NCBI GenBank assembly: GCA_013001595.1 | Contig: JABDMH010000127.1 | Span: 62,001 to 126,000 of the forward strand | Source: Saprospiraceae bacterium | GTDB taxonomy: Bacteria; Bacteroidota; Bacteroidia; Chitinophagales; Saprospiraceae | DNA length: 64,000 nt | Reading direction: 5' to 3' | Shown here: positions 17,013-60,478 of the stretch, one piece after another | Position numbering within the stretch: position 1 is the stretch's first letter | How the letters are laid out: each line of letters starts with the position of its first letter | Notes under the pieces: generated by a model | The model's input: the letters and a program-made list of their open reading frames with translations, nothing else | What the model was told of the DNA's origin: nothing | Databases searched by the model: none | Made by a program: the position numbers and the translations under genes

Positions 17013-18075
17013 ATGAACTTTACCATAGTTGGGGCCAATGGAAGAAAAATTCGAAACTATCTTCTGGGTGGCTGGATCTTCGGATTAATCTATGGCTTAA
17101 TTGAATATTTAGCGTATGAAAACCAGAGATGATCCCCAGTCATTTGCACCATTGTTGATCCGTGCGTCCTTTACAGGAGCATTGATTATGGGATCAATAT
17201 CCATCTTTGAAGACTTTGTCCAAAACTGGTTTAGGAGAAGGCAATTTATATATTTGGTTCTGGTTCGTTCCTTTTGCTATACAATCATAATCTCTTTCTG
17301 GCTAACCATTACAAATTCAATTTGGTTTTTCATAAAAAACCCTACATACTTCTGGGAAGAACTAGCTTTCTATTTCACAGATGAAATGTACTATGTCAAT
17401 CTCATTTCAGTCTTTCTGACAGCAATATTGGCCACAGGTTTAAGTGAGATAAACAGCCTTCACGGGAAGGGGCCGTTATGGAATTTTGTATTGGGAAGAT
17501 ATCACACACCAAGAGAGGTGGAACTGATTTTCTGTTTCATTGACCTTAAGGGCTCAACCACAATTGCTGAGAAATTGGGGCATTTACAATTTGCTATGTT
17601 TCTTCGGGACTTTTTTTTCGGATATCACTGAGGCAATAAAAAAACGGACGCCCCTATTTATCAGTACGTAGGTGATGAGATAATTTTAAGTTGGACCTAT
17701 GAAAAAGGGTTGAAAAATAACAACATGATTAATTGTTTCTTTGGTATACAAAAAATCATTCAAGACTTAAGATCAGCCTACATAAATAAATATGGAGCTA
17801 TTCCAACGATTAGAGCAGGATTGCATGGGGGACAAGTCATCGTTACTTGGATAGGTGAACTAAGGAAGGAAATCGTCTATGTAGGTGACGTACTCAACAC
17901 TACCGCCAGAATACAGGAGAAATGCAAACGGCTTGGCAAGGATTTCTTGATTTCAGAGAAGTTACTTTTCAAGATGAAGAATTCGGAGGGCCTCGAAGCC
18001 CAATTTGCAGAGGAAACCGTGCTTAGGGGAAAAAAGAAACTTATTCGACTCTACAGTATAGAGATGGCCACTTAA
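17013..18075 (+). pseudogene. Class III adenylate/guanylate cyclase, membrane-anchored, frame-disrupted
   Basis: Together the frames encode a protein like the 362-aa cyclase at 59390-60478: N-terminal membrane helices, a catalytic domain with FIDLKGSTTIAEKLGH, IYQYVGDE and GDVLNTTARI. The coding frame is broken. An N-terminal helix segment (MNFTIVGANGRKIRNYLLGG, from 17013) runs to a stop near 17130 in another frame than the rest. At the T8 tract near 17611-17618 the frame shifts to read FFSDITEAIKK, then shifts back at the A7 tract near 17638-17644. Read straight through, one in-frame TGA at 17629-17631 interrupts the domain, yet the number of codons matches the intact paralogue. Either decay or homopolymer sequence error would explain this. 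If 17116 is used as start, only the T8/A7 pair remains. Confidence 0.7.
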
Positions 18076-38284: not shown

Positions 38285-38431
38285 ATCCAATCAAATTAAA
38301 TCGGCTAACACAGCGAACTCGTTAAATTAAATACTCCTTAGTCCAAAATGAATCGGATTATCTTTGCCTTTATGGCCCGTGTAATTCATTCTACCCACAA
38401 AGCTGCGATTGCTTGTAGATGGGTCTGGTAT

Positions 38432-40321
38432 ATGTCCGATCTCTTTAAATATAATTGGAGAGATCACTATTACCTGAAAAGGGTTTTTTGTGCACTGATT
38501 CTTATACTATCTGTCTCCACTAGTTTTGGCCAGGAATTAACCATACGCGAAACTGAAGATGCCCTAAAAAATCTATACGGAATCGAGAAGTTGCACGCGC
38601 TGAATAAGTTGACCAGGTTCTACCGAGTGGCTAATATTCGCAAGGCGATGCGTTATGGCAGGCAAGCCACCAATTTGGGAGAAAACATCCTGATTGAAAA
38701 CGATTCCAGCCTTACCACACCAGACCTCACTCCCTTAATTAAAGCTTATGTGCATTTAGGTCAAGTATATTTTGATCGCGAGAACTATTTTGAATCTCAG
38801 GAGCAATTCATGGCCGCTCAAACATTGGCAGACCAAACCGACAATGCAACCTACTCAAATGAAATCAATAGATATCTTGAGGATATAGAAGCCCTGGCAG
38901 AGCAAGGCAAGGTCAAGCAGAGCTTTTTATCCAAAACGCTGGGTGACCTAAATGTAGGTGCCCTGGTGAGTGATGCTTCGAAAGATGTAGCCATCCAATC
39001 CGAAATCAAACTAGGCCAGGCAAATGAACGTAAAGGAGAATTTCGCAAAGCAATTGAATATTACGAAAATGCGATCAATCGATTGAGGGATAAAGGCGAT
39101 CAGGAAGAGATTAATAACCTGCAGCTCAAGATCGCTGCACTATTGGATAGAATCAACCAACATGAAGAGGCTCAAGACTTTTTGGATAATGCCATTGCCG
39201 AATTGGAAGAGGAAGAGCAATTGACCACCCCGATTCCGAGTCTAGACACCACGCGCTTATTGCCACTGAAAGAAGTTCAGGTGAACATCCAGCAAGAGAA
39301 GAAAAACCTTAAAGATCTTGCCGATAGTTATGCTAAGGAAAAAGACTTTGAAAAGTCATTGGCCTATTATAAACTGTATCAAGAACTGTCTCTAAAAATG
39401 GAAGCAGATAGTTTACAACAGTCCGCTGAACAAAGTCAAAAAGTGCGCGAGATCCTCCTCCTAAAGCAACAAAAAAGAATTGCCGAACTAAATATTGAAG
39501 CAGTTGAACTTGAGAACGAAAAGCAAGTTCGATTACGCAACCAATTTATCCTTATTGCCGGCATCATACTATTAGGCACCATAGTCACCTTGTATTTTTA
39601 TTTGCAGAAGCGCCGCCAGCACAAGCAATTGGTCATTGCCTATCGAGACCTCAATAAGACCAAGGGAAAATTGGTCAACGCAGAGCAAAAAATAATAAAG
39701 CTTTTGCGACAGCAAGTATCGGGCGACGTAGCCCAGGAACTACTGTCAGAGGGTTCTACTAAAGATGGTGAACGGCGATTTGTGTGTATTATGTTTCTTG
39801 ATATTCGAGATTTTACGCCCATGGCAGAACGGCTGAGTCCCGAAGAATTGATTCATTATCAAAATGAAGTATTTGGATTCATGATTGATGTGGTGCAACA
39901 GCACCGCGGCAATATCAATCAACTGCTCGGCGATGGATTTATGGCCACTTTCGGTGCCCCACTATCACATGGCAATGATTGCCAAAACGCCTTTCTGGCA
40001 GCGAAGGAAATTTTGGAAGAAGTAAAAGAGCGTAGTGATGCCGGAATTATTCCGAAAACGAAAATCGGCATTGGATTGCATGCTGGCCTGGTAGTGACTG
40101 GCAATGTTGGTAATGAAGCCAGAAAGCAATACTCTGTGACCGGAAATCCGGTAATTATCGCCAGCCGGATTGAACAACTAAATAAGACTTACAAAAGTCA
40201 ATTGCTCATTAGCGAAGCCGTATATGATAAACTGGAGAAGCCCCTGCCAGTCGATATTCCATTTATGGAAGTAGATGTGAAGGGTCGTTCCAATCCGGTG
40301 AAGATTATGAAGATCGCTTAG
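38432..40321 (+). CDS. Membrane-anchored TPR/class III nucleotide cyclase
   Basis: An earlier ATG at 38348 keeps the frame open, but the ATG at 38432 fits better because a signal anchor (VFCALILILSVSTSFGQ) follows. An extracytoplasmic region of repeated helix pairs (TPR-like, to about residue 370 from this start) is followed by a transmembrane helix (FILIAGIILLGTIVTLYFYL) and a coiled coil. The cyclase domain has FLDIRDFTPMAERLSP, LLGDGFMATFGAP and VTGNPVIIASRIEQL, with the metal-binding aspartates in FLDIRDF and GDGFMATF. It would make cAMP or cGMP in response to a periplasmic signal. A nucleotide-recycling or repair gene (NnrE) follows after 16 bases. Confidence 0.82.
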   Translation: MSDLFKYNWRDHYYLKRVFCALILILSVSTSFGQELTIRETEDALKNLYGIEKLHALNKLTRFYRVANIRKAMRYGRQATNLGENILIENDSSLTTPDLTPLIKAYVHLGQVYFDRENYFESQEQFMAAQTLADQTDNATYSNEINRYLEDIEALAEQGKVKQSFLSKTLGDLNVGALVSDASKDVAIQSEIKLGQANERKGEFRKAIEYYENAINRLRDKGDQEEINNLQLKIAALLDRINQHEEAQDFLDNAIAELEEEEQLTTPIPSLDTTRLLPLKEVQVNIQQEKKNLKDLADSYAKEKDFEKSLAYYKLYQELSLKMEADSLQQSAEQSQKVREILLLKQQKRIAELNIEAVELENEKQVRLRNQFILIAGIILLGTIVTLYFYLQKRRQHKQLVIAYRDLNKTKGKLVNAEQKIIKLLRQQVSGDVAQELLSEGSTKDGERRFVCIMFLDIRDFTPMAERLSPEELIHYQNEVFGFMIDVVQQHRGNINQLLGDGFMATFGAPLSHGNDCQNAFLAAKEILEEVKERSDAGIIPKTKIGIGLHAGLVVTGNVGNEARKQYSVTGNPVIIASRIEQLNKTYKSQLLISEAVYDKLEKPLPVDIPFMEVDVKGRSNPVKIMKIA

Positions 40322-41100: not shown

Positions 41101-42081
41101 TCACATGCTGAGCACAACATTACCCTTCTTACGCCCGCTGTCTACATATTGATGAGCCTCCCTCGCCTCGGTCAAGTGGTAAGTTCTATCGATGATCGTC
41201 CGAAGTTTTCCCCTTTGCAATAGATCCGTAAGCTCATTCAATAGGTCGCGAAGCTCAGCAATCGGCTTCAGTCCCGTAGCTGAAAATTTGGCCTTCTTCT
41301 TTTCGAAAAGACTACTCCACATCATTTGAAATAATAGCGACACACTCAATACGGGCGAAAGGAAGGTTCCTGTCGGAGCCAGTATATTCTTACTCTTAGC
41401 GTATGATAGCTTGCCCACGGTATCAAATATCACATCGAATTGCCTCGACAACTTCGTCGGATCCGTTTGGGTGTAATCAACCACATCGTCCGCCCCAAGT
41501 GACCGCACCAGATCAATATTATCTGTACTACATACACCCGTGACTTTTGCGCCCAAATGTTTCGCCAATTGCACAGCGGCGGTGCCAAGGCTACCTGATG
41601 CCCCATTGATCATCACCTGCTGGCCTGGTTTGACGTTAGCCATCTCTTTAAGAAAATTCCAGGAAGTAAGGGGGCCATCGCATACACTGGCAACTTGTTC
41701 ATGACTGAGATGGCTGGGTTTTCTAGCTAACACACCATCTTCAGATATACAGAGGAACTCTGCATTGGTGCCCGCCCCTAGCACAGATTCGCCAAATACT
41801 TCTTCTCCAATGCTACATTTCTCCACCCCTTTACCGGTCGCTATGACGACACCAGAAAATCCTGTGCCGGCAATGCGATGCTTAGGTTTGGTGAGCCCCA
41901 TAAATAACCTACCGAACCATGGTATGCCTTTGCGCATCATGGTGTCTGCAGCGGTGACACTGGCTGCTTTCACTTCAATCAATATTTCTCCCTGGTTCGG
42001 AATTGGCCTGGCAATTTCTTCCAGTTTCAATACATCGGGAGATCCATACCTGGTAATTGCGATTGCCTTCATCTTGCTCAT
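41101..42081 (-). CDS. MDR family NAD(P)-dependent quinone oxidoreductase-like enzyme
   Basis: The 326-residue protein fits the zinc-independent quinone reductase branch of the medium-chain dehydrogenase/reductase family. It has GEILIEVKAASVTAADTMM near residue 30, a Rossmann motif NGASGSLGTAAVQLAKHLGA near 158, and FDVIFDTVGK. No structural or catalytic zinc cysteine set is visible. It probably reduces quinones or enals with NADPH. The ATG three codons in is a possible alternative start. It is convergent with nnrE and 70 bases downstream of the cyclase-AraC fusion gene. Confidence 0.82.
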   Translation of the reverse strand: MSKMKAIAITRYGSPDVLKLEEIARPIPNQGEILIEVKAASVTAADTMMRKGIPWFGRLFMGLTKPKHRIAGTGFSGVVIATGKGVEKCSIGEEVFGESVLGAGTNAEFLCISEDGVLARKPSHLSHEQVASVCDGPLTSWNFLKEMANVKPGQQVMINGASGSLGTAAVQLAKHLGAKVTGVCSTDNIDLVRSLGADDVVDYTQTDPTKLSRQFDVIFDTVGKLSYAKSKNILAPTGTFLSPVLSVSLLFQMMWSSLFEKKKAKFSATGLKPIAELRDLLNELTDLLQRGKLRTIIDRTYHLTEAREAHQYVDSGRKKGNVVLSM

Positions 42082-42151: not shown

Positions 42152-44509
42152 TTATTTGGATGTCATTTCCTTCCAATATGCGCTCGGAGTGGTTCCCATC
42201 TCCTTCTTAAAATAGGTGTTGAAAACCGTCTTGGAATTAAAGCCGCTCTCATAAGCTAGTGCCAAGATGGTCAAATGTCGCTGAGTTGGATCATCAACTT
42301 TCTCTTTAAAGGTCGCTAGCCGGTAGGCATTGACAAAGTCAGAGAAGTTCTTGCCTACACCCTCATTCAGCAATTGTGACAAATGATTTGGAGGCATATC
42401 TAACATCTCTGCCAAGTCACGTAAACTAAGTTTGGGATTGAGGAATGGTTTGCTTTGCTCCATCAACCCCACCAACTCGACTTCGCGCTTACTTAGCTCC
42501 ACTGGGCTAAATAAGGGTTGCTGATACTTGCGATCTGACGCAAGAATCGATGGCTCCTGACCTAAAATCTGTTGCATCAGTTGCGGAAATTCAGGTCGTA
42601 CCCGAAGATTATTAAGCATGGGGTCGATATTTAGATATACCATCATTGGAAGTCGCGAAGCAATTCCCTTTTCGATGTACTGCAGTGACTTTTCCTGCTC
42701 ATCTAAAAGCGCATGAGCGAAAATTAAGAAGTGCAGCGCTCGACCCATCAAATCTGTTTCCAGCATGGCTTCCAGTTTTGAAACCCCCGCAAGAGCTTCC
42801 TCTCGATAGTTTGATACAGCATAGGCTAGGGTCATGCCACCAAGTCGTACCAGATCTCCCGTAATGTCGGGTGTGATCTGAGTGAAATGGGAAAGGCCAT
42901 CCTGCTTCTTGCCCATCATGAGCAAGGCTTGGCCATAGTATAAGATCGAAGCTGAAAAATCTCCTTTGAGATCCAAGGCACTATCAAAAGACTCGATGGC
43001 TGCATGGTAGTCTTCGGAACAATAGGAGATGAATCCCTTCAAATGATGGTTGATGGGTGAAAAGGGATCCAATTGAAAAGCCGTTTTTAAATAATTATCG
43101 GCTGCTGAAAATTTGCCTTCTGCGACCAAGGTAGATGCCATGCTCTGATAATATTCGACAGTAGGCCGCAATTCAAAAGACTTTTCCAGATGGCCATAGG
43201 TTTTCTGAAGATCCCATTCGTTCAGAAATGCCATATAGGATAAATTGAGCTGACATTCAGGAAGGTCTTCATCTAATTCAATCGCATGATCTAAATAAGG
43301 TTGCCCTTTCGAAAATGCCTCAGCAGCTGGCATCAATCCAATCGTCCCCAGCAAGGTATAAGCCAGATGTACGCCCAAATGGGCGAGCGCAAAATCAGGT
43401 TGGCGCTCAATAATGTCTTTGAGCATTGTAAGCCCCTTTTCTAAATCATGCTTGCCCATCTTCAAGATGTGATATCGGGCTTTGAGGTAATCTTTGTAGA
43501 CATCTAGCGATACATCCGGATGGCTGACCAGGTGATCACCTATATCAAAATGGCCTATGTGTTCACGTAATCTATCGGCAATGAGCAGACTTATTTCATC
43601 CTGCACAGCAAAAATATCATCGAGATCACGATCAAACGTCTCAGACCAAAAATGAAAATCATCAGCCACATCCACCAATTGTGCCGTGACGCGAATTTTA
43701 TTCGCAGACATCCTAATGCTGCCCTCCAAAACAGTGGACACATTTAAGGCCTTGCCAATCTCCGACAAGGGTTTATCATGATGCTTAAAATGGAAGGAAG
43801 ATGTTCTCGAAGTGACTTTCAGTTCTTTGATTTGGGCCAAGGCATTAATAATCTCCTCCGTCATTCCATCGCTGAAATATTCGTTATCCTTGGAGCTGCT
43901 CATATTTATAAATGGCAGCACTGCAATTGACTTGGTCGCTGAAGTCTTATCGAGCTCAAAAGCTTTTGGACTAGGAATCTTTATTCCCGGGTTGCTCACT
44001 GCAAACACTTCCATTGAGGCATTGACATTCTTCAATTCGACCTGACCCAGCAACGTCGTTGAAATATGAGATTGGTTGGTGATCTCCCGCTGTACCATTG
44101 CGGAGAGCAGAATGGTCCCTGGTTCAGCCAGATTTTCAATACGGGAGGCGACGTTGACACCATCGCCATACACTTCGGTGCCTTCAAACACAATGTCTCC
44201 CATGTGCAGTCCGATCCTGAGTGGCACCGGCTTATCTCTTTGTAGATCGCGTTGAATGGCAATGGCGCATTCCACCGCTTCCACTGCACTCTGGAACACA
44301 CTTAAGGTGCCATCGCCAAAGTATTGAATGATCTCTCCATGGTAGCGTGCATGGTGTTTCTTAAATGAATGGCGATGCCGGCTGCGGGCGGCAGAGGCCT
44401 CCTGTTCATCTTTCTGCATCAGTGCCGTATAACCCACGATATCCGTGAACATTATGGCTGCAATCCGTCTTCTTTTTAAATTTGGCACCCCCCTATGCTT
44501 TGCAATCAA
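42152..44509 (-). CDS. Cyclase-TolB-TPR-AraC fusion protein
   Basis: This 785-residue protein joins four parts. Residues 16-180 are a class III adenylate/guanylate cyclase domain (AAIMFTDIVGYTALMQ, YFGDGTLSVFQ, GDGVNVASRIENLA). Residues 200-340 form a TolB/FlgO-like segment (SIAVLPFINMSSSKDNEYFS, GSIRMSANKIRVTAQLVDV). Residues 350-660 are TPR-like helices. The C-terminal 120 residues are an AraC helix-turn-helix pair (LSLRDLAEMLDMPPNHLSQL, ILALAYESGFNSKTVFNTYF). No membrane segment is visible, so it is cytoplasmic and could couple nucleotide synthesis directly to DNA binding. The start is a TTG at 44509; a GTG at 44488 is also possible. A membrane protein gene lies 43 bases upstream. Confidence 0.85.
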   Translation of the reverse strand: MIAKHRGVPNLKRRRIAAIMFTDIVGYTALMQKDEQEASAARSRHRHSFKKHHARYHGEIIQYFGDGTLSVFQSAVEAVECAIAIQRDLQRDKPVPLRIGLHMGDIVFEGTEVYGDGVNVASRIENLAEPGTILLSAMVQREITNQSHISTTLLGQVELKNVNASMEVFAVSNPGIKIPSPKAFELDKTSATKSIAVLPFINMSSSKDNEYFSDGMTEEIINALAQIKELKVTSRTSSFHFKHHDKPLSEIGKALNVSTVLEGSIRMSANKIRVTAQLVDVADDFHFWSETFDRDLDDIFAVQDEISLLIADRLREHIGHFDIGDHLVSHPDVSLDVYKDYLKARYHILKMGKHDLEKGLTMLKDIIERQPDFALAHLGVHLAYTLLGTIGLMPAAEAFSKGQPYLDHAIELDEDLPECQLNLSYMAFLNEWDLQKTYGHLEKSFELRPTVEYYQSMASTLVAEGKFSAADNYLKTAFQLDPFSPINHHLKGFISYCSEDYHAAIESFDSALDLKGDFSASILYYGQALLMMGKKQDGLSHFTQITPDITGDLVRLGGMTLAYAVSNYREEALAGVSKLEAMLETDLMGRALHFLIFAHALLDEQEKSLQYIEKGIASRLPMMVYLNIDPMLNNLRVRPEFPQLMQQILGQEPSILASDRKYQQPLFSPVELSKREVELVGLMEQSKPFLNPKLSLRDLAEMLDMPPNHLSQLLNEGVGKNFSDFVNAYRLATFKEKVDDPTQRHLTILALAYESGFNSKTVFNTYFKKEMGTTPSAYWKEMTSK

Positions 44510-44552: not shown

Positions 44553-45215
44553 TTATCCTCTCGAAGGCGAAACTTGCCATCCCAAGTGCGCTCGATTGCG
44601 GGCCAGCACGATTAAGCTTACCCACACCACCCACCAAGCATCAAAAACAAAAGTGATCTTCTGCAGCATTGGGAGATAGTAGAACCCAATTTTTGTCTCA
44701 AAAATGAAAAACACGATGATGCTGAGGGTGTAGCAGACATAAGCCAGTCTCCTCAAACTTACCCGATCAGACCGCTGCACTTCTATGAAGAATGGAACGA
44801 GGGCCATGGTTCCCAAAATACCCGTGGCAGTAACAATATAATCATGATGAGGCGTATACATAAATACAAAAACGAACATCGTAAGCATGCCAAACCAACG
44901 GATCATTTGCGTCCTCCTATTCTGATGGTCAAAGATCTTGGGGAGGAGGTAGAAAAAAGAAATCATGGCAAAACTCAAGATGAGGTGCGATACGATGGCT
45001 AAAGGGCGACCAGTATTAACCACCCCGGTCGGGGTAGTGGGATTCATCACATCGCATAGGAAATTGTGAAAAAAACTGTAGCCCTGGTCCTGGGGGATGT
45101 TAATGGAACCTCCCGGATAATGCGATGCAGCAAAAGGAAAAACCATCAGATATAGGCCGAGTCCGACAATTGGGAACCAAGGATATACTATCAATAAATA
45201 CTTCCTAATCATCAC
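44553..45215 (-). CDS. Polytopic membrane protein, unknown
   Basis: The 220-residue protein has about six hydrophobic helices and a PxxxGVVNTGRP loop with two histidine-containing positions (HYPGG, YTPHHDYI). It is likely a cytoplasmic membrane protein. The pattern is loosely like DUF998-type membrane proteins but I do not claim the family. It sits 43 bases upstream of the cyclase-AraC fusion on the same strand, so the two are probably one transcription unit, and the membrane protein could sense something for the regulator. The divergent gene on the other side is the RbsD-like lipoprotein. Confidence 0.6.
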   Translation of the reverse strand: MMIRKYLLIVYPWFPIVGLGLYLMVFPFAASHYPGGSINIPQDQGYSFFHNFLCDVMNPTTPTGVVNTGRPLAIVSHLILSFAMISFFYLLPKIFDHQNRRTQMIRWFGMLTMFVFVFMYTPHHDYIVTATGILGTMALVPFFIEVQRSDRVSLRRLAYVCYTLSIIVFFIFETKIGFYYLPMLQKITFVFDAWWVVWVSLIVLARNRAHLGWQVSPSRG

Positions 45216-46096: not shown

Positions 46097-46246
46097 TCAG
46101 ATGATTGATTATGAGCTAGAAGAAAATGAAGACTCAAAAGATGGCCGTTGGATTTCTTCAAATCATGATCGGTGATATAAGATATTGAGAACGACCAACG
46201 GTACTAATCATTTCAAATGCCAATCAGATCAATAATTAACAAATCC

Positions 46247-49105
46247 ATGAATCCAACTCTTCAGAAGCTATCTTGCTTGGTGCTACTGCTTATACTAAGC
46301 ACTCGTTGCGCACAAGATGGACGAGATGCTGATACAACTAGTCCAGGCGACCAAGGCGCTCCCATTTCTCCATCCCAAGAAGCCGACTATGTGAATTGGC
46401 CGGTCTACCGGGGAGATCACAAGGGGAATCAATATGCCGAGCTGGCGCAAATTCATGCCGCCAATGTACACCGGCTTGAACCCATCTGGCAATATCGAAC
46501 GGGAGACGCCAGTGAGCGCTCATCTATGCAAGTGAATCCCATCATCGTCGATGGCCTCCTATATATTTCGACTTCAACCCTGAGGGCCGTGGCCATTGAT
46601 GCCGCTACAGGTTCAGAAGTATGGACATTCCACTCGCAGAAATACAACAGAGACCAAGAACTTATTAGAGGCCGGAGCCGGGGAGTGACCTATTGGGCTT
46701 CCGAAGATGGCAAGGACCAACGCATCTTTCATTTTGTAAAAGACCGGGTCTATGCCATCCAAGCCAAGACCGGCGAGCTCATCACCGATTTTGGTACTGG
46801 AGGTCATATTGATCTCCGACAAAACATGGGCATGGATCCCGAAGAAGTATCCATAGAGGTGACAACTCCAGGTGTTGTGTACAAGAATACATTGATTGTC
46901 ACGTCCCGTGTACCAGAAGGTTATCAATCGACACCTGGACACATTAAGGCATACGATGCGACAACCGGTGCGTTTAAATGGATTTTTCACACCATTCCCC
47001 AAGAGGGGGAATTTGGGTACGATACCTGGCAATTTGAAGAAGGGGAAACCTATGGAGGAGCAAATGCATGGGGAGGTCTAACAGTAGATGAAAAACGGGG
47101 CTGGGTTTTTTGCGCGACTGGTTCTCCAGCTTATGACTTTTTTGGTGGGTACAGAAAAGGAAATAATCTATTTGGCAATTGTGTGTTGGCCCTGGAGGCT
47201 GAAACAGGCGAACGGATCTGGCATTACCAAACTGTTCGCCATGATATTTGGGACTACGACAATCCTTCAGCTCCAATTTTGGTCACCATTGGAAAGGGAA
47301 AAGGCCAGCAAGAAGCGGTGGTGCAGCTTACGAAGATGGGACTGACCTTTGTTCTCGATAGAGACACCGGCGAGCCTTTATTCCCAGTCGAAGAATTGAA
47401 TGTGCCGCCTTCCACCATCGATGGTGAGGAGGCATCACCTACCCAACCTTTTCCGCTCAAACCACCTCCCTTAAATCAATTGGGAATGACCGAAGCCGAT
47501 CTCACCCAGATCTCTGAAGCGGCCCACACCAAGGCTTATGAGGATTTCCAAAGGTATCGAGCTGGAGCACTCTACGAACCACCTTCAGCAGCAGGTACCA
47601 TCACGGCACCAGGGCTATTTGGTGGCGTCGAATGGCATGGAGGGTCGTTCGATCCTTATACCAGCATCCTCTACGTAAATGCAAACAATGCAGCGACGAT
47701 CTCTAAGCTGCATAAGGTGCATGATTTAGATGACCTTAGCCAAGCCAGTACACTACAGAAGGGGCGACAAGTCTATTTACAAAACTGTGCCTCTTGTCAT
47801 GGTTTGGCACGTAAAGGCGTGCCCCCAACGTATCCCAATATCGAACACCCCGAAAAGTCTGCTCAAGAAATCCAAGCGATGATTCGCAATGGGAAAAACA
47901 TCATGCCTGCTTTTCCGCAATTGCAAGAAGAAGATATTGACGCGGTGACGGAATACATATTGAGTGATGAAGAGATTTTGGAAGGCATAGGCCCTAAAGG
48001 AAAAGTAAGATATCTGCATGAAGGCTATGATCGCTTGGTGGATCATCAAGGATTTCCAGCGGTGGCTCCACCTTGGGGCACATTGAATGCCATTGATCTG
48101 AAGACGGGTACCTTCTTCTGGAGAAAACCCTTGGGTCAATATCCGCAGTTGGTGAAGCAAGGCATTCGCAATACTGGGACTTTGAATTATGGTGGTGCCT
48201 TAGCTACGGCTGGAGGCATCGTATTTATTGCCGCCACTGCCGATGAAAAATTTCGCGCCTTTGAAAAAGTTACCGGTAAATTGCTGTGGGAATATCAGCT
48301 CCCTGTAGGTGCCTATGCGACACCATCCATCTACACTTTGGCAGGTCGTCAGTATGTAGCCTTGGTCGCCGGTGGTGGTGGAAAAAACGGGACTCCTTCA
48401 GGTGACTATGTCATGGCGTTTGCACTACCGGAAAGTTATCTGAGTAACAGGCAAGCACCCAAGGAAGCTGTTCCCAATGCTGATGGCTGGATCTCATTGT
48501 TTAATGGTAAAAATCTAGATGGTTGGGTACAAATGAATGGTTCACATTCCTATAAGGTAGAAAACGGAGCGATTATTGGTCGCACCACCGTAGGCAGTGA
48601 AAATTCTTTTCTCTGCTCACTTCAAGAATTTGATGACTTTGAATTTACCTGTGATGTGCAAGTCGACACCATCACCAATCAGGGGGTGCAATTTCGTTCA
48701 TCCGCACGGCCGGTCAGCGAAAAGGACCATCCGAATTTTAGGGCTGGCCGAGTATGGGGACCACAACTAGAAATCCGACGCAATATGGGTCTAGGTAAAA
48801 TCACGACGGGTGTACTCTACGGCGAAGCGCTTGGGACTGGTTGGCTTTCCTCAGAAGAGAAATTAAAAGATAGTCACGACTATTATATTCCCGACGCCTG
48901 GAATAGAATCCGCATCCTCGCAGAAGGACCCAGGATGCGAACCTTCTTAAATGGACGCCTTATCGAAGACATTGCGAACGAAGATGTCTATCGTACTCAC
49001 CCCAAGGGATTCATTGCCCTGCAAATTCATGGCATTGATGGTGAACGGCCCTTCGAAATGGCATGGCGGGATTTGAAGATTCGACCGCTATCTCTGGTGG
49101 AGTAA
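46247..49105 (+). CDS. PQQ-dependent sugar dehydrogenase-cytochrome c-DUF1080 fusion
   Basis: The frame opens at 46217, but the ATG at 46247 fits a lipoprotein signal with lipobox LSTRC. The quinoprotein propeller starts with WPVYRGDHKGNQYAELAQ and continues through several PQQ-type blades (GLTFVLDRDTGEPLFPVEE, GVEWHGGSFDPYTSILYVN). A cytochrome c domain with CASCHG (cysteine near residue 514 from this start) and a downstream MPAFP methionine sits inside the propeller order, as in membrane glucose dehydrogenase-type fusions. From about residue 745 a DUF1080 domain (GWISLFNGKNLDGW) forms a beta-sandwich that in relatives hydrolyses 3-keto disaccharides. The combination suggests oxidation and cleavage of sugars at the cell surface. 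Confidence 0.85.
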   Translation: MNPTLQKLSCLVLLLILSTRCAQDGRDADTTSPGDQGAPISPSQEADYVNWPVYRGDHKGNQYAELAQIHAANVHRLEPIWQYRTGDASERSSMQVNPIIVDGLLYISTSTLRAVAIDAATGSEVWTFHSQKYNRDQELIRGRSRGVTYWASEDGKDQRIFHFVKDRVYAIQAKTGELITDFGTGGHIDLRQNMGMDPEEVSIEVTTPGVVYKNTLIVTSRVPEGYQSTPGHIKAYDATTGAFKWIFHTIPQEGEFGYDTWQFEEGETYGGANAWGGLTVDEKRGWVFCATGSPAYDFFGGYRKGNNLFGNCVLALEAETGERIWHYQTVRHDIWDYDNPSAPILVTIGKGKGQQEAVVQLTKMGLTFVLDRDTGEPLFPVEELNVPPSTIDGEEASPTQPFPLKPPPLNQLGMTEADLTQISEAAHTKAYEDFQRYRAGALYEPPSAAGTITAPGLFGGVEWHGGSFDPYTSILYVNANNAATISKLHKVHDLDDLSQASTLQKGRQVYLQNCASCHGLARKGVPPTYPNIEHPEKSAQEIQAMIRNGKNIMPAFPQLQEEDIDAVTEYILSDEEILEGIGPKGKVRYLHEGYDRLVDHQGFPAVAPPWGTLNAIDLKTGTFFWRKPLGQYPQLVKQGIRNTGTLNYGGALATAGGIVFIAATADEKFRAFEKVTGKLLWEYQLPVGAYATPSIYTLAGRQYVALVAGGGGKNGTPSGDYVMAFALPESYLSNRQAPKEAVPNADGWISLFNGKNLDGWVQMNGSHSYKVENGAIIGRTTVGSENSFLCSLQEFDDFEFTCDVQVDTITNQGVQFRSSARPVSEKDHPNFRAGRVWGPQLEIRRNMGLGKITTGVLYGEALGTGWLSSEEKLKDSHDYYIPDAWNRIRILAEGPRMRTFLNGRLIEDIANEDVYRTHPKGFIALQIHGIDGERPFEMAWRDLKIRPLSLVE

Positions 49106-55482: not shown

Positions 55483-56640
55483 CTATGATTGAGGTATGGC
55501 ATACTTTGCTTTGAATTCGGAAGGTGTGTGGTCGGTCACTTTCTTGAATACACGATTAAAAGTGGCTTTGCTATTGAACCCAACTTCGAAAGCAATGGCC
55601 AGTATTTTAAAGTCGCGTGTGTCTTCAACAAGCAATTTCTTAGCTTCTTCGACGCGGTACTGATTCACGAAATCATAGAAATTGACTGATAACTCGTCAT
55701 TAATCAGTTGCGAAAGTTGATAATAAGGAACCGACAGAGAGTCCGCCAGTTCTGAAATCTTTAGGTCATTCTTCAGATATGGCTTATTCGTTTCCATATA
55801 TCCTAACAGTCTTTCCTTGAGTTCAGGAAACCTATTTCCACTTCTAGTTGATGGAGAGCCCTTCTTGATTGAAGTGCTCTGAATTTCTTGCGTAGCGGTG
55901 AAGATCTTCGTGTTGCCAATTGCAATATAACCGATTGAGTATAGCGCTATGGATGTGATCAATACCATGATGTAGTCAATCTCGATTTGATACGATTGGA
56001 CAACCGAAAGGACAATCACTATAATCAAATACAGGAACAGGTAAATGGCAAAGAAGTAGTTAAAACTCTTGAGCCAATCCAGCTTTTTCACAGTAAGAAC
56101 GTCCGATGAAATTCTCTTCAGATTGTCTTCCGTTTTCCCTATGAATTTGTATGAACACACCACATAAACGATGGTCTGAAGGACGTGCGTCGCCATGAAA
56201 ACAAGTTGTCCAGTTGGTATTTCCAATATCCCATTATTTGCAAACCCTTGTATGTAGGAAATTTTCTCCGACGCTGATGTCAGATAAAACGGAAGCATAA
56301 TCAACATTACCAGCACTGCAGGTACAAAATGCAGTAATGACTTAGAGGTAGAATGATAATTCTTGTCCAACAAATAACGGCAATACAAATAGTAAAGGGG
56401 GCCCATGCAAAATAGCAGGGGATATGTGATGGCAATCAGGAAAGGAAATTTTAGGGTGACCTGCGAAATATCAGCCGCATATTCCAGCAAATGCAATGAA
56501 ACCACCATCAACAGAAGGGCAAGCCACTTATTCTCACGCCGATTATCAGTCTTCGCCAATAGGAAAAGTGACAGAAAAAGTCCTTGTGCCGCTCCAAGCA
56601 GAATAAGCACCGACCAGATGTTGAAGGTTATTCCTGTCAT
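55483..56640 (-). CDS. Membrane-bound AraC-type regulator (7TM sensor)
   Basis: The 385-residue protein has about seven N-terminal hydrophobic segments (for example SVLILLGAAQGLFLSLFLLA) and a C-terminal AraC helix-turn-helix pair: LKISELADSLSVPYYQLSQL near 300 and FKILAIAFEVGFNSKATFNR near 350. This 7TM-sensor/AraC layout is common in Bacteroidota. It would sense a small molecule in the membrane and bind DNA directly. The SRPBCC gene lies just downstream on the same strand and is a candidate target. The last 55 residues are the second HTH region. Confidence 0.85.
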   Translation of the reverse strand: MTGITFNIWSVLILLGAAQGLFLSLFLLAKTDNRRENKWLALLLMVVSLHLLEYAADISQVTLKFPFLIAITYPLLFCMGPLYYLYCRYLLDKNYHSTSKSLLHFVPAVLVMLIMLPFYLTSASEKISYIQGFANNGILEIPTGQLVFMATHVLQTIVYVVCSYKFIGKTEDNLKRISSDVLTVKKLDWLKSFNYFFAIYLFLYLIIVIVLSVVQSYQIEIDYIMVLITSIALYSIGYIAIGNTKIFTATQEIQSTSIKKGSPSTRSGNRFPELKERLLGYMETNKPYLKNDLKISELADSLSVPYYQLSQLINDELSVNFYDFVNQYRVEEAKKLLVEDTRDFKILAIAFEVGFNSKATFNRVFKKVTDHTPSEFKAKYAIPQS

Positions 56641-59389: not shown

Positions 59390-60478
59390 TCAAGGATGGT
59401 TCACCGCAAAAAACTTGAGCCTTTCATGCTTGCCCCTTAAAGGAATGTCATTCAGAAACTCAAACTGGTAGGCAATGGCACTAGAAATTCCTTTAAATCG
59501 CTCGATTAGATTTTCTGTCACTAACAGCCACCGTTCGTACTCGTTACATTTCTTTTCAAGCCGGGAGGCTGTATTAAGCACATCACCATGAAAAGCAATC
59601 TCACGCTTTATATCTCCAATTTCAGTAACCGTAACTTCACCGGTGTCCATGCCCGCTTTAAACTCAGGAAACAGTCCATACTTGTTTTGAAAATAAAGTC
59701 TACGTTCATCTAATCTTCTCTTGAATTCAAAGTAAGTGTCCAGACACTTTAGTTGGTCAAGTCCCTCTTCTGTCTTCCAATGAAGCACCACCTCATCTCC
59801 CACATATTGATACACGTTTGCCTCATTCTTAATAAGCACGGGCGTAAGTTCATGGACACATTCTCTGATAAACTGACTATATTTTTCATGCCCCAATCGC
59901 TCGGCAATGGCCGTTGAGCTCTTCAAATCAATGAATAGAAAAATGAGGTGTTCTTTTCTTGGGTGATAATATTTTCCCCTTAGCAAATCGAACAAAACGC
60001 CTGGTCCAAATTTCCTATTAATCTGGCTGATGAAATTAATCAAGAATATGAAGAAGAAGAAATAGGACAAAATCGACGCCATATATCGAATATTGAAAAG
60101 GTAGTCCTGAAAAAATTGAAAATCTTCTTGGGTAACAATGTGCAACCTGTAGAATATTTGATAGATGATTATTGTGCAAAGTACAAGGGAGAGGATATAG
60201 AGAATACTTTTTATAAAGATGATTAAGCCGAACGGCTTCGTTCGAATTACTGAGAAGTCTGTAACACGGTTGACGGCGGTAAACAACGTCCCCAGTATTA
60301 CTCCGGTAAGCACAACTTCGAGGTGAAAAAACCCAGAATACATGTACTCCGTAATCGGATTTTGCTCAAAATATCCTTTAAAGCCAAAAACGGTCAACAG
60401 CGCATAGAAGTAGACGATTGCTATCCAAGCCATGACCGATAGGAGCCATTCATTCACGAAGCGTCTTTTATTGAGCAT
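59390..60478 (-). CDS. Membrane-anchored class III adenylate/guanylate cyclase
   Basis: The 362-residue protein starts with membrane helices (about residues 12-150, including WLLSVMAWIAIVYFYALLTV) and ends with a cyclase domain. The domain includes FIDLKSSTAIAERLGH, with the first metal aspartate, VYQYVGDEVVLHW, with the second, and GDVLNTASRLEKKC. It is the intact paralogue of the disrupted gene at 17013-18075, sharing the same layout. It would make cAMP or cGMP at the inner face of the membrane. Flanking gaps are long and hold no partner gene. Confidence 0.85.
   Translation of the reverse strand: MLNKRRFVNEWLLSVMAWIAIVYFYALLTVFGFKGYFEQNPITEYMYSGFFHLEVVLTGVILGTLFTAVNRVTDFSVIRTKPFGLIIFIKSILYILSLVLCTIIIYQIFYRLHIVTQEDFQFFQDYLFNIRYMASILSYFFFFIFLINFISQINRKFGPGVLFDLLRGKYYHPRKEHLIFLFIDLKSSTAIAERLGHEKYSQFIRECVHELTPVLIKNEANVYQYVGDEVVLHWKTEEGLDQLKCLDTYFEFKRRLDERRLYFQNKYGLFPEFKAGMDTGEVTVTEIGDIKREIAFHGDVLNTASRLEKKCNEYERWLLVTENLIERFKGISSAIAYQFEFLNDIPLRGKHERLKFFAVNHP

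Follow-up and report, generated by a model that had tools for sequence, protein, structure and literature searches.

The locus described here raises the question of whether a single polypeptide that joins a nucleotide cyclase to a DNA-binding domain is an enzyme or a nucleotide-sensing regulator, and on which gene it would act. It lies in a 64,000-nucleotide stretch of the genome of a Saprospiraceae bacterium (the window), in which an earlier note had recognised a cyclase, a TolB/FlgO-like domain, TPR helices and an AraC-type domain in one polypeptide, encoded next to a small membrane protein. The open reading frame of this polypeptide, P0001, was found to be intact, with 785 aa and no internal stops, and both Pfam and a predicted structure bore out the four-part reading. 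The features of the locus are as follows.

42152..44509, minus strand: whole gene of the cyclase-TolB/FlgO-like-TPR-AraC protein P0001, 785 aa as called from TTG
43997..44473, minus strand: class III cyclase domain, residues 13-171, with D23, Q62, D66, E112, N119 and R123
43520..43939, minus strand: TolB/FlgO-like domain, residues 191-330, Pfam FlgO below cut-off
42560..43519, minus strand: TPR-type helical superhelix, residues about 331-650
42161..42442, minus strand: AraC-type HTH domain, residues 690-783
41101..42081, minus strand: MDR gene, quinone/enone-oxidoreductase-like, 326 aa (PF08240, PF00107, PF13602)
44553..45215, minus strand: small membrane protein P0003, 220 aa, upstream of the regulator, the pairing not being conserved

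Pfam Guanylate_cyc (PF00211) matches residues 17-171 of P0001 (3.3e-12, 46.8 bits, cut-off 21.9), and several TPR models match within about 450-546. The C-terminal domain, which contains two HTH motifs, is matched by HTH_18 at 699-779 (7.2e-14, 52.3 bits against a cut-off of 33.6) and by HTH_AraC at 741-778 (2.3e-08, 34.4 bits against 26.6), and its modelled helices fall between 696 and 784. FlgO matches weakly at 187-283 (E 0.0012, 19.2 bits, cut-off 22.6), although this segment was modelled confidently by AlphaFold2 despite the sub-cut-off score. The nine members of set A1 carry the same Pfam families as P0001, with the exception of FlgO, which passes E 0.01 in four of them. The AlphaFold2 prediction, made with 41 sequences, has a mean pLDDT of 88.3 and a pTM of 0.66; the single domains are modelled confidently, their relative placement less so. 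A Foldseek search with the model returned the cyclases 3mr7 and Ma1120 as best matches (TMt 0.83-0.92), Ma1120 reaching a TMt of up to 0.92 against the cyclase domain, with an rmsd of 1.6. By inspection of the sequence alone, neither a transmembrane segment nor a signal peptide was apparent. The window encodes another AraC-type regulator at 55483-56640 (minus strand), and the HTH regions of this protein and P0001 are 45% identical.

Searches of relatives, of the phylum and of GTDB records, three samples that partly overlap, ruled out that the architecture is limited to a single genome; it recurs in many Bacteroidota. The relatives search found the full architecture in 10 of 99 other genomes (G035, G099, G021, G050, G060, G002, G009, G043, G064 and G059, with a dead cyclase in G064 and the architecture split over two contigs in G059). 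It is also present in at least 5 of 394 other genomes sampled across the phylum (a lower bound, two candidates having been scored per genome), and at 41 of 80 loci retained out of at least 504 relatives in GTDB records, three of the 41 being frameshifted or truncated (L082, L090, L093). The Bacteroidota concerned include Arenibacter, Kriegella, Aureibaculum, Roseivirga, Adhaeribacter, Flavilitoribacter and Lewinella. One Balneolaceae MAG (L076) also carries the full architecture, and NCBI places this family in the phylum Balneolota. Protein lengths at the 41 loci range from 413 to 875 aa, frameshifted and extended ORFs included, with 776-778 aa the commonest size (22 of 41). A GTG at 44488, seven codons after the TTG of P0001, would give 778 aa, and because the orthologues start at position 8 or at most one residue away, where this GTG stands, the natural start of P0001 is probably the GTG rather than the TTG. 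Comparison of 41 full-architecture proteins, after removal of the damaged or degenerate rows L050, L082, L090 and L093, showed that the TolB/FlgO-like domain has the highest mean pairwise identity of six segments (0.71), while the cyclase (0.654) is as conserved as the AraC domain (0.625) and the TPR region is at 0.40.

The earlier note had also suggested that the protein may make its own second messenger. At the active site, the metal aspartates and an acidic residue 112 are in place, but the base-recognising lysine is a conserved glutamine. Comparison of P0001 with 3mr7 and Ma1120 located the metal aspartates D23 and D66 and the transition-state residues N119 and R123, with Q62 in place of the adenylyl-cyclase lysine and E112 in place of the aspartate. 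Canonical base-selecting pairs are Lys/Asp in adenylyl cyclases and Glu/Cys in guanylyl cyclases, while the mycobacterial Rv0386 has Gln/Asn; P0001 is without the Lys/Asp pair and is therefore not classed as a canonical adenylyl cyclase. The Glu-Cys rule is also stated in PMC4886424, according to which other Bacteroidetes cyclase-like proteins carry a Glu-Lys/Arg pair. The residues were compared across 45 full-architecture rows, made up of P0001, the 41 loci from GTDB records, and L043, L046 and L050. D23, D66, N119 and R123 are kept in 42 of the 43 proteins readable at all six positions; Q62 is present in all 42 of these, and residue 112 is E in 33 and D in 9. The sample is biased, since a peptide pattern that includes the Q had served in part to find the GTDB loci. 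The exception, L050, has N, R, E, D, Q and G at the six positions and is a full-length orthologue of P0001 (L050:252-2564). The frameshifted L082 was not read at the active-site positions and L090 was read in part (E112, N, R). Two samples obtained by ordinary similarity are in accord, the quartet being kept in 9 of 10 among the relatives (the exception again being L050) and in 5 of 5 of the phylum sample. Residue 112 is acidic in all 44 full-architecture proteins in which it is readable, compared with 8 of 38 AraC-less cyclase-TPR proteins (non-acidic in 30), on which basis the AraC-fused cyclases are predicted to have a tighter nucleotide pocket than their AraC-less relatives.

Conservation of the full catalytic quartet argues for catalysis, and the cyclase is probably active. 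An amide and acid pair would be compatible with the reading of adenine, and ATP is probably the substrate. A different product, cGMP or a cyclic pyrimidine, might be reflected in the combination of Q with E or D, which is neither Lys/Asp nor Glu/Cys. We consider this very unlikely, as such a pair could still read adenine, and a mycobacterial precedent weighs against it. Rv0386, which has a novel substrate selection of its own, is described in PMC4452763 as mainly an adenylyl cyclase, with a 20% guanylyl side activity.

Rv0386 belongs to the mycobacterial Mclx proteins, in which a cyclase is joined to a LuxR HTH; they are interpreted as enzymes or as regulators modulated by ATP or cAMP, and their domain combination is called nearly exclusive to mycobacteria (PMC4452763). 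Like P0001, Mclx proteins (Rv0386, Rv1358, Rv2488c) have an N-terminal class III cyclase and a C-terminal HTH in one soluble protein (PMC4452763). They differ in the middle, which is AAA/NB-ARC rather than TolB-TPR, and in the HTH, which is of the LuxR rather than the AraC type; no AAA/NB-ARC domain was found in P0001 among Pfam families to E 1. The architecture is thus fairly called unusual, as it had been, but "unprecedented" would be unwarranted because cyclase-HTH fusions have already been described in mycobacteria (PMC4452763), and P0001 is a further form with a TolB-TPR middle and an AraC HTH. The cyclase-TolB-TPR-AraC architecture was not found described in the titles and abstract openings of the open-licence PMC literature, among the matches listed; passages of PMC1183210 and PMC5309233 contain nothing on it, and five terms looked for in the text of PMC2447327 do not occur there. 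The putative peptide modification system cyclase TIGR04510 shares the N-terminal cyclase, and P0001, at 57 bits, scores far under its 400-bit cut-off and falls outside the family.

The mycobacterial proteins also supply the model for another reading, in which the cyclase of P0001 would dimerise and sense ATP with little or no catalysis, leaving the protein purely a transcription factor. The same was suggested for Mclx2 and Mclx3 (PMC4452763). The replacement of the lysine by Q62, the existence of relatives that have no cyclase, and the dead copy, L050, speak for a domain that is dispensable or chiefly a sensor. However, the retention of the quartet in all but one readable protein, and of an acidic residue 112 in every one, seems to go beyond the needs of binding, and Mclx2 and Mclx3 have reportedly lost such residues (PMC4452763). 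We treat a purely sensory cyclase as a tentative alternative, somewhat unlikely.

The two halves of the architecture also occur separately, as cyclase-TolB-TPR and as TolB-TPR-AraC proteins. The HTH-less proteins, found as Bacteroidota paralogues and on Rhizobium and Sinorhizobium plasmids, have the first three domains of P0001 in the same order, but differ from it in the absence of AraC and of an MDR neighbour, and in the mostly non-acidic residue 112. At E<=1e-30 there are 401 matching plasmid records, the majority from Rhizobium (206) and Sinorhizobium (138); nine of the best ten of the 401 span cyclase to TPR and one, from Aureibacter, spans TolB to AraC. The cyclase-less regulators of Bacteroidota share the last three domains with P0001, but lie mostly elsewhere in the tree and mostly have other neighbours. 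In a quick tree of the TolB-TPR-AraC part (68 rows, 45 full and 23 cyclase-less), the presence of the cyclase changes six times, five of these changes being forced by starred branches. A single clade of full-architecture proteins was rejected in this tree by the AU test (p-AU 1.7e-59), for which 64 of the 68 rows were used, L082, L090, L093 and L151 being left out. In the cyclase tree (81 rows) the fused cyclases cluster, with three changes, which is compatible with one origin. The simplest reading of these trees, which alone do not separate gain from loss, would be one fusion followed by several losses of the cyclase.

The conserved partner of the regulator, absent from the earlier note, was found to be the downstream reductase-like gene, which begins 70 bp past the regulator gene on the same strand. 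Loci with at least 2 kb of downstream sequence were taken as testable (37 of 41 full-architecture and 34 of 38 AraC-less loci) and their flanks were examined up to 4 kb. Of the 37 full-architecture loci, 30 have a homologue of the MDR (40-66% identity) 3' of the regulator on the same strand, and in 23 of these 30 it is the next called ORF; none of the 34 AraC-less cyclase-TPR relatives has one downstream (Fisher p 2e-13, uncorrected for relatedness). It is downstream in 8 of the 10 relatives, being absent from the G009 and G064 flanks, and in 4 of 5 of the phylum sample (not L177). The seven loci with no MDR in the flank are L060, L069, L077, L084, L087, L090 and L093; an NAD(P)H-binding NmrA-like gene stands at its place in L077 (on the contig of L047) and L087, and a DUF4476 protein gene comes next in L060. 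A DUF4386 membrane protein gene follows the MDR gene in L179 and L180, and a DUF4386 gene comes next after the regulator in L050. The MDR protein contains ADH_N and ADH_zinc_N domains. Because its best PDB matches include RTN4IP1 (2vn8), a "ripening-induced protein" (4ida, which we take to be an enone reductase), a quinone oxidoreductase (3tqh) and a chloroplastic quinone-oxidoreductase homologue (5a3j), the comparison suggests that it reduces enones or quinones.

The MDR gene also lies directly downstream of four of the 23 cyclase-less regulators (L134, L136, L144, L149; the rows being 22 of 25 from the relatives search plus L108), so that a linkage strictly bound to the cyclase was not upheld. 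It is not downstream of the cyclase-less L182 of the phylum sample, and a test of cyclase against MDR on independent pairs, which were too few, gave no signal. The pairing thus follows AraC-bearing proteins with or without a cyclase, and the target of the AraC end is most likely the reductase-like operon, the cyclase being an added input or output. Since cyclase-less regulators also precede the MDR gene, cyclase activity would not be needed for the role of this pairing, a point that also favours the ATP-sensor reading. The same pattern bears on the opposite proposal, that cyclic nucleotide synthesis is the main output, acting through other proteins of the cell, and that the AraC domain merely anchors the enzyme on DNA or serves autoregulation of the operon. 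HTH-less cyclase-TolB-TPR relatives are common, and the genome has eight cNMP_binding matches, seven of them over cut-off; a cyclic nucleotide would therefore have possible receivers. The pairing, however, tracks the AraC-bearing proteins and extends to regulators that have no cyclase, which makes this proposal improbable. Matches to PF00211 number 20 in the genome, and two of them contain an internal stop. Within the window, a second cyclase gene at 38348-40321 (plus strand), about 2 kb from the 3' end of the regulator, has TPR repeats, one apparent membrane segment and a class III cyclase domain, in this order (PF00211, 1.4e-21); a further PF00211 gene lies at 59390-60478 (minus strand, 362 aa, 3.8e-07), and a cyclase-like gene at 17116-18075 (plus strand) is apparently split, leaving two ORFs of 171 and 121 aa.

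The membrane-protein neighbour of the earlier note is present, upstream of the regulator, but the two genes do not form a conserved unit. No P0003 homologue was found at any of the 41 full-architecture loci, 39 of which extend 1 kb or more upstream, or in the sequence flanking the regulator in the 10 relatives, where contig ends cut some flanks short; P0003 was accordingly rejected as the partner of the regulator, and because the pairing is not conserved the neighbourhood is probably incidental. The idea that P0003 is a divergent member of DUF4386 was likewise rejected by hhalign (probability 0.2%, E 0.32); P0003 belongs to a different family and is present in 19 of the 99 relatives. In 39 upstream regions no k-mer of 6-8 bases exceeded the top shuffle k-mer, so that no conserved DNA motif was detected, and a scan for sigma-70-like promoters and terminators gave counts at the shuffle level. 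A TAnnTTTG, the sequence of the Bacteroidota -7 element, stands at 44514-44507 as a candidate. Elsewhere in the window, 46217-49105 (plus strand) encodes PQQ dehydrogenase propeller, cytochrome c and 3-keto-disaccharide hydrolase domains in a single protein.

We propose that P0001 is a one-component regulator of the next gene, the NAD(P)H-dependent quinone/enone-reductase-like MDR, with a built-in working class III cyclase, a proposal to which we give about an even chance. It would probably be local to the MDR gene, and not a partner of P0003. The proposal is built on the domains, the conserved catalytic residues, the conserved MDR pairing and the lack of a cyclase in some close relatives; catalysis, the activity of the MDR enzyme and the direction of regulation are what we infer. 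The regulator would be cytoplasmic, having no apparent membrane segment. Its cyclase domains may pair head to tail in class III fashion, and the dimer would also place a pair of AraC HTH domains side by side on DNA. A cytoplasmic signal, either a ligand or a protein partner, may be received by the TolB-like domain and the TPR superhelix, and this middle would couple the cyclase end to the AraC end. ATP being the probable substrate, DNA binding would be modulated by the cyclic nucleotide or by the state of the protein, ATP-bound or post-catalytic; alternatively, the cyclic product may be passed to the cNMP-binding proteins of the genome. It is plausible, judging from the residues retained, that the protein makes a second messenger. 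In a bolder version, DNA binding would be set by the regulator's own nucleotide turnover, cycling between ATP-bound and product states gating the AraC pair, with the cyclic nucleotide as a by-product or second output and a reductase of reactive enones or quinones under control. We hold this version to be unlikely; if true, the cyclase-less lineages would be versions run by the TPR/TolB sensor alone.

To our knowledge, cyclic-nucleotide signalling in Bacteroidota has been little worked out, and the locus offers a conserved regulator-target pair in this phylum. The relatives of P0001 with intact, dead and absent cyclase domains constitute a natural experiment. The question of enzyme or nucleotide-sensing regulator, asked of the mycobacterial fusions, thereby becomes directly testable in bacteria that are environmental and non-pathogenic.
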